Source: a virus
IMG/VR virus record: IMGVR_UViG_3300034072_000428
Span: 1-27,423 of that record
Length of the DNA stretch: 27,423 bases
Strand: one strand, 5' to 3'
Each line of letters starts with the position of its first letter. Position 1 is the stretch's first letter. A program made the translations under genes and the position numbers. The notes under the pieces are model-generated. The model made no database searches and was not told the origin of the DNA. It worked only from the letters and a program-made list of their open reading frames with translations. Shown here one piece after another: positions 2,647 to 27,185 of this stretch.

Positions 2647-2930
2647 CCCCTCCCCTCCCCGCCCTCACGAAACTGAGGCAGCTATGCGAGCGCCGCGGCT
2701 GGACGGTTGCGCTGTCCGACGGCGTGACGATTGGGGATATGCCGACGCGCGAACTGGCGGTGAGAGGGAAGGATTTTGGCGAGGTCCTGGATTTCCGGTC
2801 GCGCAGTGTGCCGGTGGGAGCGGATGACGCGGAGAAGGCTGTCGCTGACAATCGGCTGGCTGCTGTGGCGCTGATCCGGCTGGTGTTTCGGGAATGGGGT
2901 GTTGAGTATCCTGAAGGGGTGACGCTGTAG
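2643..2930 (+). CDS. Unknown 95-residue protein between terS and terL
   Basis: The gene overlaps terS by ATGA and its TAG overlaps the GTG start of terL, so it is translationally coupled to both packaging genes. The product has an Arg/Trp-containing N-terminus (LRQLCERRGWTVALSDGVTI), an acidic and basic middle, and a C-terminal FREWGVEYPEGVTL. I do not recognise a family. Its place inside the packaging operon suggests a packaging accessory role or a small early head protein, but that is only context. The length and tight coupling on both sides make it a real gene rather than a chance frame. Confidence 0.7.
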   Translation: MTPPLPALTKLRQLCERRGWTVALSDGVTIGDMPTRELAVRGKDFGEVLDFRSRSVPVGADDAEKAVADNRLAAVALIRLVFREWGVEYPEGVTL

Positions 2931-5440
2931 TGGCCGGTCGGGGGGCAGCAGCGTCCGAGAGCCCGACACGGACGGTGGAGTATGTCGCGGAGATCGCGCG
3001 GCTCTATCGGGAGGATTACACGGGGTATTGCCAGGATATTCTCGGGTTCACGCCGTATGAGTGGCAGTCGCAGTTGGGGCGGGACCTGCTGACGAAGAAG
3101 CGGAACGGGATCGCGTCGGGGCACGGGATCGGGAAACTGCAATCGGTCGATGAGCCGGTGCTGTGTCCGGATGGCTGGCGCAGGATCGGCGACATTCGGG
3201 CGGGCGATCTGGTGGCGAGCGTGGATGGGTCGTTCACGCGGGTCACGCGGGTATTTCCGCAGGGCGTCAAGCCGATGTACCGCGTGGTGCTGGACGATGG
3301 CACCTGGACGCTGGCGGGTGATGAGCATCTGTGGCTGACGACGACGCGGAGCGAACGGAAGCACGGCCGCGAGGGGAAGGTTCGCACGACGGCTGAGATT
3401 GCCGGGACGCTGACGTTTCTGAACGGGCCGCGCGCGGGGTTGAACCATCGACTCCCCCGGCTGGCGGCAGTGCAGCACCCGGCGCGTGAGTTCCCGGTCG
3501 ATCCGTATGTGCTGGGGGTTTACCTTGGCGACGGGTGTTTCTCGGACAGTTCGATCACGCTGTCGGTGGGCAAGCGCGATGAGCTTGCGCGGCGGGTGGA
3601 GTTTCTGAGCGATAGTCCGTCGAACGGGAAGGAGCATGTTCGGATCGTGCGGATTGCCGGGCTGATGCAGCGAGTTGAGGCGCTGGGTCTTGGAGGTTGC
3701 CGGTCGTGGGAGAAGTTCATCCCCGACGTGTATATGTTCGGGTCGATCGAGCAGCGTCTGGCGCTGTTGCAGGGGTTGCTGGACACCGACGGCACGGCTG
3801 GGAAGCATGGTTCGGTGACGTTTGACACGTCGTCGCCGTTGCTCGCGGCGGGTGTGGCGCAGTTGGTGCGGTCGTTGGGCGGGGTCGCGCGCCGAAGCGG
3901 TCGCCAGGGTCGGCTGAACGGCGTGGACAAGCGGTGGTCGTACCGGGTGTATGTGTCGCTGCCCGACGGAATGCCGGCGTTCACGGTGCCGGAGAAGCTG
4001 GCGCGGTATGCGCCGCAGCAGGGGCACCGGAACCGTGAACGGACGCTGGAGCGGTTCATCGAGCGCGTCGAGCGGGTCGAGGATTGCGAGGCGGTGTGCA
4101 TCGAGGTCGAGCATCCCAGCCACCTCTACGTGACGCGCGACCACATCGTGACGCACAACACGCGGTGTGCGGCGTCGTTGATCCACTGGTTCATATCGAC
4201 GCGGCCGAGGCCGGCGATCGTGGCGACGGCGAACACGGAGGATCAGCTTCAGAAGAAGCTGTGGCGCGAGTTGGCGGTGGTCAACAACGGCGCGAAGAAC
4301 CGGGACTGGTTCACGTGGAAGACGTCGACGTTCACGATGTTCGAGGACCCGACGGCTCAGGCTGTGGCGCTGGCGTGGTCGGAGAACAATTCGGAAGCGT
4401 TTGCGGGCACGCACGAGACGCACGTGCTCGGGGTGTTCGATGAGGCGTCGGCTATTCCGAGGGTGATTTTCAACGTGTTTGCTGGCGCGATGTCGACGGC
4501 TGGAGCGCGGTGGGTGGCGTTCGGCAATCCGACGCGCGCCGAGGGGTATTTCTACGATCTGTGCTTCGGGAAGCTGAAGGCGAGGAAGCCCGGCGATCTG
4601 GCGGAAGGGCTGTGGAATTCGCGGTCGGTGGCGTCGTGGGAGAGCCCGGCCGTCGATCCGTCCTGGGTCGAGGAAATGCGCGCGCAGTATGGCGACGAGA
4701 GCGACGAGTTTCGCGTGCGCGTGGCCGGTTTGCCGCCGCGGTTCGACAGTGAGCAGTTCATCGCGCGGGAGATGGTCGACCGTGCGATGACGCGCGAGGT
4801 GGAGTTGTTCAAGCGGTGGCCGTTGGTGCTGGGCGTGGACATCGGGCACTCGCACGATCGGTCGGTGATCGTGCCGCGTCGTGGTCGGAAGGTGCTGGAC
4901 GCGATCAAGTCGATCAAGGGCGAGCGGACGATCGATTTCGCGCGGCGTCTGGCCGAGGAAGCGCAGTATTACCGGGAATACGAGGGCCTGACGGCTCAGA
5001 TGGTGATCGAGAACGTCGGCATCGGTGTCGGCGTGGTCGAGACGCTGGAGGATCTTGGGTTCGCCGATCAGGTGTGGGGCATCAATCCGGGAACGACGGA
5101 TGATGTCGACACGGAGCTCTATGCGAACCTGCGGTGCAAGATGTGGGCCGAGGGGAAGGAGTGGCTGGAGGGCGAGGTCGACCTGCCGAACCACCCGGAA
5201 CTGTACGACGACCTGGTGACGCTGAAGCGGAAGCCATCGGGCTCGCGCAATAATCTGCGGCTGGAGACGAAACATGAATTCCGGGCGCGCACGAAGCGGT
5301 CGCCTGACTTTGGCGATGCGTGGGCGCTGACGTTTGCGCTGCCGTTCGAGCTGCTGCCGGATCGCCGCGCGGACCGTTGGCGCGATGATTACGACGATCG
5401 GGGGGGTGCTGTGGAAGGCACCTGGATGGGGGCGATGTGA
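2930..5440 (+). CDS. terL: Terminase large subunit (TerL) interrupted by an in-frame intein
   Basis: The 836-residue precursor is an ATP-driven DNA packaging motor and nuclease split by a 341-residue intein (residues 70-410). Removing the intein leaves 495 residues, a normal TerL size. The N-extein ends ASGHGIGK and the C-extein starts TRCAASLIHWF, so splicing rebuilds the Walker A motif GHGIGKT. Walker B is VLGVFDEAS, with D504 and E505. The RNase H-like nuclease domain includes D637 (GVDIGHS), IENVGIG and D793/D796 (PDFGDAWALTF). The start is GTG 2930, overlapping the previous stop. Without splicing the ATPase should be dead, so packaging depends on intein activity. The extein resembles GHGIGKT-type phage terminases; naming a closer subfamily is beyond what I can see. 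Confidence 0.92.
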   Translation: MAGRGAAASESPTRTVEYVAEIARLYREDYTGYCQDILGFTPYEWQSQLGRDLLTKKRNGIASGHGIGKLQSVDEPVLCPDGWRRIGDIRAGDLVASVDGSFTRVTRVFPQGVKPMYRVVLDDGTWTLAGDEHLWLTTTRSERKHGREGKVRTTAEIAGTLTFLNGPRAGLNHRLPRLAAVQHPAREFPVDPYVLGVYLGDGCFSDSSITLSVGKRDELARRVEFLSDSPSNGKEHVRIVRIAGLMQRVEALGLGGCRSWEKFIPDVYMFGSIEQRLALLQGLLDTDGTAGKHGSVTFDTSSPLLAAGVAQLVRSLGGVARRSGRQGRLNGVDKRWSYRVYVSLPDGMPAFTVPEKLARYAPQQGHRNRERTLERFIERVERVEDCEAVCIEVEHPSHLYVTRDHIVTHNTRCAASLIHWFISTRPRPAIVATANTEDQLQKKLWRELAVVNNGAKNRDWFTWKTSTFTMFEDPTAQAVALAWSENNSEAFAGTHETHVLGVFDEASAIPRVIFNVFAGAMSTAGARWVAFGNPTRAEGYFYDLCFGKLKARKPGDLAEGLWNSRSVASWESPAVDPSWVEEMRAQYGDESDEFRVRVAGLPPRFDSEQFIAREMVDRAMTREVELFKRWPLVLGVDIGHSHDRSVIVPRRGRKVLDAIKSIKGERTIDFARRLAEEAQYYREYEGLTAQMVIENVGIGVGVVETLEDLGFADQVWGINPGTTDDVDTELYANLRCKMWAEGKEWLEGEVDLPNHPELYDDLVTLKRKPSGSRNNLRLETKHEFRARTKRSPDFGDAWALTFALPFELLPDRRADRWRDDYDDRGGAVEGTWMGAM
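3137..4159 (+). other. Class 3-like intein with LAGLIDADG homing endonuclease
   Basis: This is the intein inside TerL (precursor residues 70-410), between the Lys and Thr of Walker A. It starts LQSVDEPVLCPDGWRRIGDI, so residue 1 is Leu, not the Cys, Ser or Ala of class 1 and 2 inteins. Instead it has the WCT triplet of class 3 inteins: Trp135 in block B (DEHLW), Cys390 in block F (AVCIEV) and Thr408 in block G (VTHN), with +1 Thr in the C-extein. The endonuclease motifs are LGVYLGDG (Asp201) and LLQGLLDTDG (Asp285, Asp287), both with acidic residues, so cutting activity is plausible. Class 3 inteins are established as phage-associated and as using Cys F4 as first nucleophile. Splicing here is inferred, not shown. 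Confidence 0.9.
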
Positions 5441-26435: not shown

Positions 26436-27185
26436 ATGCCCGCCGTCAGCGCCTCGAAATATCTGGTCAACGCGGGCTGGGACGACGTGCCCCATCTCGA
26501 CAAGCAGACCAAGGACGAGCTGCTCGCCGCAACCCCGCCGTATCTCCGCGATGCGCGCAGCAAAGGTATTCCCTCGCTCGGCTCAGGCGCGATCTACCCG
26601 ATCGAGGAATCCTTCATCAAGGTCGAGCCCTTCCCGCTGCCTGCGCACTGGCCGCGCTGCTACGGCATGGACGTCGGCTGGAATCGCACCGCTGTGCCCT
26701 GGCTGGCGCATGATCGCGACCAGGACGTCGTCTACATCTATGCCGAGCATTATCGCGGCCAGGCCGAGCCCTCGACGCACGCCAGCGCCATCCGCGCGCG
26801 CGGTGACTGGATCCCGGGCGTTATTGATCCCGCAGCGCATGGCCGCAGCCAGAAGGACGGCGAGCAGCTGATCGCGACCTATTCGGGGCTGGGGCTCAAC
26901 ATCGTCGGCGCCAACAACAGCGTTGAGGCTGGTATCCTCGAGGTGTTCGAGCGGCTGTCTACCGGGCGGCTCAAGATATTCTCAACCTGCATCAACTGGT
27001 TCGCGGAGTACCGGCTTTACCGCCGCGACGAGCGCGGCCACATCGTCAAGAAGAACGATCACCTCATGGACGGCACGCGCTACGCGATCGTGTCCGGCCT
27101 GAAACGCGCCATCTGCCGCCCGATCCAGCGCATTGGGCAGGAGCAAGGCGCGCGCACCGTTGCAGATCGAATTGGGGGATATTGA
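26436..27185 (+). pseudogene. C-terminal half of a second large terminase, N-terminal ATPase missing
   Basis: These 249 residues begin just before KYLVNAGWDDVPHL and carry the C-terminal part of another TerL: RSKGIPSLGSGAIYPIEESF, then HWPRCYGMDVGWNRTAV with nuclease Asp79, GVIDPAAHGRS with Asp131, and DHLMDGTRYAIVSGLKRAI with Asp212. All three RNase H-like nuclease positions are present. The Walker A and B half is absent upstream. The ATG is in frame with, and three bases after, the tailspike TAA, and lacks a properly spaced ribosome-binding site, so the coding start is probably artificial. The family differs from the TerL at 2930. Most likely a truncated gene created by recombination or by contig joining. 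Confidence 0.75.

Follow-up and report, generated by a model that had tools for sequence, protein, structure and literature searches.

The window analysed here is a 27.4-kb virus record (27,423 nucleotides; IMGVR_UViG_3300034072_000428) in which we detected a precursor gene for the large subunit of the terminase (TerL; PHROG phrog_2, 4.6e-33). Its homology extends across the ATPase and the nuclease parts of TerL, and the Walker A motif is predicted to be restored on splicing of an intein. Nearby are a P22-type portal gene, a major capsid protein gene and a small-terminase-like ORF with a Pfam Terminase_2 match that is below the Pfam cut-off. Positions 1695-24837 can mostly be aligned to the record L002 (IMGVR_UViG_2708743030_000007), a sister phage, at approximately 82-86% DNA identity, and the intein is the largest gap. 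The features of the gene are the following (the 184 relatives are described below):

2930-5440, + strand: TerL precursor ORF, 836 aa, GTG start, stop included
2930-3136, + strand: N-extein, 69 codons, ending in the Walker A sequence ...SGHGIGK (alignment to the intein-free L002)
3137-4159, + strand: intein assigned to class 3 with a LAGLIDADG endonuclease domain, 341 aa, Leu1...Thr-His-Asn (empty-site alignment, profiles and model)
3137-3139, + strand: intein position 1 (A1), Leu, CTG (DNA reading and empty-site alignment)
3326-3334, + strand: block B, His64 (B10)-Leu65-Trp66 (B12) (survey of the 184 relatives)
3503-3535, + strand: first LAGLIDADG motif, PYVLGVYLGDG (Asp132; Asp in 174/184 relatives)
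3761-3793, + strand: second LAGLIDADG motif, ALLQGLLDTDG (Asp216 and Asp218; Asp216 in 184/184)
4097-4099, + strand: block F, Cys321 (F4), expected to act as first nucleophile and to form the branch point (invariant, 184/184)
4151-4159, + strand: block G, Thr339-His340-Asn341 (G5-G7) (invariant, 184/184)
4160-4162, + strand: +1 residue, the Walker A Thr of mature TerL (L002 alignment)
4160-5440, + strand: C-extein, remaining TerL ATPase domain and nuclease domain (PHROG match and L002 alignment)

The contig that carries this full TerL also encodes a stand-alone ORF of 249 aa (26436-27185, + strand), which has a TerL nuclease domain of a different family (Pfam Terminase_6C, 2.7e-13; 55% identical to the TerL of EBPR podovirus 1) without the ATPase part. 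It has no homologue in the L002 record, whose alignment ends at about 24837, and may be what is left of a second phage at the end of the contig.

Insertion site and the intein-free homologue

The intein splits the TerL Walker A motif between Lys69 and Thr411 of the precursor. With the junctions marked by slashes, the DNA reads ...GGG ATC GGG AAA / CTG CAA TCG ... ACG CAC AAC / ACG CGG, and the protein GIGK69 / L70QSV...VTHN410 / T411RC. Removal of the 341 codons leaves 495 codons. L002 encodes a natural intein-free TerL that is 93% identical, has a contiguous GIGKTRCAA and likewise measures 495 aa; it aligns with the window exteins over all 495 aa, gap-free at the junction. Because the Walker A Thr is present only to the right of the insert, the junctions are unambiguously K/L and N/T, and since the empty site of L002 sets them at K/L and THN/T, position 1 of the intein is Leu. 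A preliminary description of this DNA had placed the intein at 3137-4159 between Lys69 and Thr411, which proved exact to the base. It had also named an N-terminal junction elsewhere as grounds for abandoning its reading, and the alignment to L002 rules such a junction out.

The TerL of L003, which is 73% identical to that of the window and matches the TerL of Sphingomonas baiyangensis (L017), is intein-free as well. When 398 genomes from the family of this species were screened for close TerL relatives with an intein, one new close relative (72%) came up, and its TerL is likewise without one.

Class 3 residues and variation at position 1

Trp135, Cys390 and Thr408 of the precursor correspond to W66, C321 and T339 of the intein, and B10 is H64. 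An alignment with eleven relatives, taken from a range of phage genes, shows no variation at these four residues or at H340 and N341. We then considered 184 distinct related inteins, which were gathered by resemblance to the window intein or its kin and are thus biased toward its family; the large scans used search patterns based on the endonuclease region rather than on the catalytic splicing residues. His-B10, Cys-F4, Thr-G5, His-G6 and Asn-G7 are invariant among them, and B12 is Trp in 178 and Phe in 6.

The sequence features by which class 3 inteins are recognized are present. Position 1 is Leu and so provides no Cys, Ser or Thr nucleophile, the B12, F4 and G5 residues are in register with those of the relatives, and His B10 is accompanied by a terminal His-Asn and a +1 Thr, where Ser, Thr or Cys is expected (Thr in 149/169 related inteins, Ser in 19/169 and Cys in 1/169). 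Among solved structures the kinship is also to class 3 rather than class 1. In a search of the family profile against PDB, the top two matches are class 3 DnaB inteins (6BS8, 5.5e-28 and 6RIX, 6.7e-28), while the class 1 gp41-1 intein is lower (6QAZ, 2.1e-19); an E value near 1e-28 for the solved class 3 inteins excludes chance resemblance. Pfam detected only the endonuclease domain in the window intein, not the splicing domain, and the NCBIfam intein C-terminal model scored 14.1 bits, just below its cut-off of 15.6. The splicing-domain assignment therefore rests on alignment and structure. The AlphaFold model (mean pLDDT 91.3) fits 6BS8 at 1.4 A over 123 residues of the splicing domain (Z 20.6), and the whole model matches the PI-SceI intein-endonuclease end to end (approximately 320 residues, Z about 26).

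The class 3 assignment with its Trp-Cys-Thr (WCT) triplet, already proposed in the preliminary description, is thus well supported as judged from sequence and model, and the lack of conservation of Cys390 and Thr408 that would have spoken against it was not seen in the 184 relatives. The DnaB inteins of M. smegmatis (6BS8) and M. chimaera (6RIX) have His, Trp, Cys and Thr-His-Asn in register with the window intein and share its insertion in a P-loop and a non-nucleophilic position 1 (Ala in the DnaB inteins). They are, however, mini-inteins without an endonuclease, whereas the window intein has Leu1 and a LAGLIDADG domain.

We surveyed position 1 in 169 distinct inteins, that of the window among them, in which the residue at -1 is a clean Lys, and found 12 residue types: Ala (94), Cys (16), Gly (12), Met (10), Phe (8), Glu (8), Ser (7), Leu (5), Asp (3), Val (3), Arg (2) and Gln (1). 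Leu1 persists in three clusters after clustering at 60% identity and hence probably arose more than once. It occurs in one other TerL at the same Walker A site (L198) and in the helicases L051, L118 and L150 (the latter two assigned by resemblance to L051). The empty site thus bears out the Leu of the preliminary description, but at 5/169 it is neither unique nor the remarkable feature it had been taken for. By the class 3 mechanism, in which position 1 has no chemical role (PMC3196547, PMC7664689), Leu1 is ordinary variation, position 1 being chemically free in this group of inteins.

The intein of L198 (IMGVR_UViG_3300010371_000157), like that of the window, is a class 3 intein in a TerL Walker A motif at GK/T with Leu1 (GPGK/LHPKS...), but the two are less than 60% identical and the L198 ORF has a further Cys1-type intein-like segment. 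The same pairing of a Walker A class 3 intein with a second, Cys-starting intein-like segment (class 1 type by eye) was observed in the ORFs of L051 and L004.

The endonuclease domain and mobility

Matches to Pfam LAGLIDADG_3 (4.1e-8) and Hom_end (1.5e-5) are both above the Pfam cut-offs. Both motifs retain their catalytic acidic residues (Asp132 and Asp216), as had been described before, and the fold matches PI-SceI; from its sequence, the domain appears intact. Continued homing, also suggested earlier, is plausible on these grounds. LAGLIDADG motifs were present in 82.5% of 1701 class 3 inteins in a database survey (PMC7891396).

The closest inteins found are those of L005 (54% identical) and L020 (50%), although their host TerLs are only 29% identical to the window TerL. 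Other related inteins are located at GK/T or GK/S of ATPases, helicases among them, whose exteins show no detectable similarity. At the sequence level, inteins in distant TerLs thus resemble each other more than those TerLs do. The L005 intein (IMGVR_UViG_3300037755_000850, 1537-2586) occupies the same TerL site as that of the window but begins with Ala1. It keeps its splicing residues, but the first LAGLIDADG Asp is replaced by Asn (YLGNG), a substitution that suggests a dead endonuclease.

The intact LAGLIDADG residues and the intein-free allele of a close sister phage are most simply explained by a homing element. A foreign base composition of the intein was rejected: its GC (0.66) and GC3 (0.83) match those of the exteins (0.64-0.65 and 0.83-0.84), so that composition is uninformative on a recent arrival. 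Directly downstream of the insertion (4160-4282, codons 70-110), 22/22 fourfold sites are identical between the window and L002, compared with about 0.79 elsewhere in the gene. This may be a weak hint of local exchange, or a co-conversion tract, at the insertion site, and a hint only, because the same codons are also the most conserved stretch relative to L003.

Predicted splicing and the proposed packaging switch

We conclude, with a probability of about 0.94, that the insert is a selfish class 3 intein with a LAGLIDADG homing endonuclease, located between Lys and Thr of a phage TerL Walker A motif. The site, the junctions, the class 3 catalytic set, the HINT and LAGLIDADG architecture and the intein-free sister gene are read from the sequence, and the splicing steps are modelled on characterized class 3 inteins. 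Cys321 would attack the Lys69-Leu70 peptide bond to give a branched thioester, from which Thr+1 would take over the N-extein; cyclization of Asn341 would release the intein, and an acyl shift would yield the native 495-aa TerL with an intact Walker A loop. Leu1 would have no part in this chemistry. Acting on intein-free TerL alleles, the endonuclease would cleave around the K/T codons, and repair would spread the element.

The class 3 mechanism and the TerL P-loop sites are established (PMC5050341, PMC3196547, PMC7664689), and both class 3 inteins and the TerL K/T site have been described in mycobacteriophages (Kelley et al. 2016, PMC5050341). Like the window intein, the TerL1-a inteins of that study interrupt Walker A after the invariant Lys and before the nucleophilic Thr. 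The likeness to TerL1-a was noted for the site, and the phage class 3 inteins of the study share the WCT triplet. The phage and the TerL family differ, however; among TerL relatives whose host is known, the closest belong to sphingomonads (L003/L017, Sphingomonas baiyangensis). The window intein is an ordinary, well-made member of the known class 3 phage inteins. It adds a Leu1 example, leaves the understanding of inteins and of phage packaging unchanged and, with the near-identical natural allele of L002, offers a clean pair for tests of splicing and homing.

The preliminary description had further proposed that splicing acts as a switch, and we considered a version in which it is held back until a signal (redox, metal or temperature) permits DNA packaging. 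With its Walker A loop split, the precursor is very probably without ATPase activity, but this is true of every P-loop intein. A mycobacterial class 3 DnaB intein has been described as sensing oxidative stress through its block F Cys (PMC6195587), and in the window intein another Cys, C317, precedes the catalytic C321 by four residues. However, no conserved regulatory feature was seen in the intein family, where C317 is uncommon, mycobacteriophage TerL inteins are reported to splice efficiently (Kelley et al., PMC5050341), the TerL of the sister phage does without an intein, and the intact endonuclease fits a selfish element. We found nothing that supports the switch, which is a conjecture and improbable. 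The CEAVC sequence at 4085-4099, which includes both Cys residues, is of note in that C317 is common to L010 and L012. Redox-gated splicing, for example through a Cys317-Cys321 disulfide that would make assembly of the packaging motor conditional, seems less probable still.

We give equally little credence to a decayed intein that no longer splices and leaves TerL dead. Leu1 is indeed uncommon, and there is a known class 3 pseudogene without activity (Arsp-FB24 Arth_1007, PMC3196547). That pseudogene, however, lacks His B10 and Cys F4, whereas all catalytic positions are present here, the reading frame is open across 836 codons, the remainder of the essential TerL is intact, and Leu1 recurs among relatives in other phages. 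A class 1 or class 2 intein with its true N junction elsewhere has practically no chance of being correct: we found no point in its favour, the intein-free homologue refutes it by setting K/L, and the intein has Cys at F4, Trp at B12 and its best solved matches in class 3.
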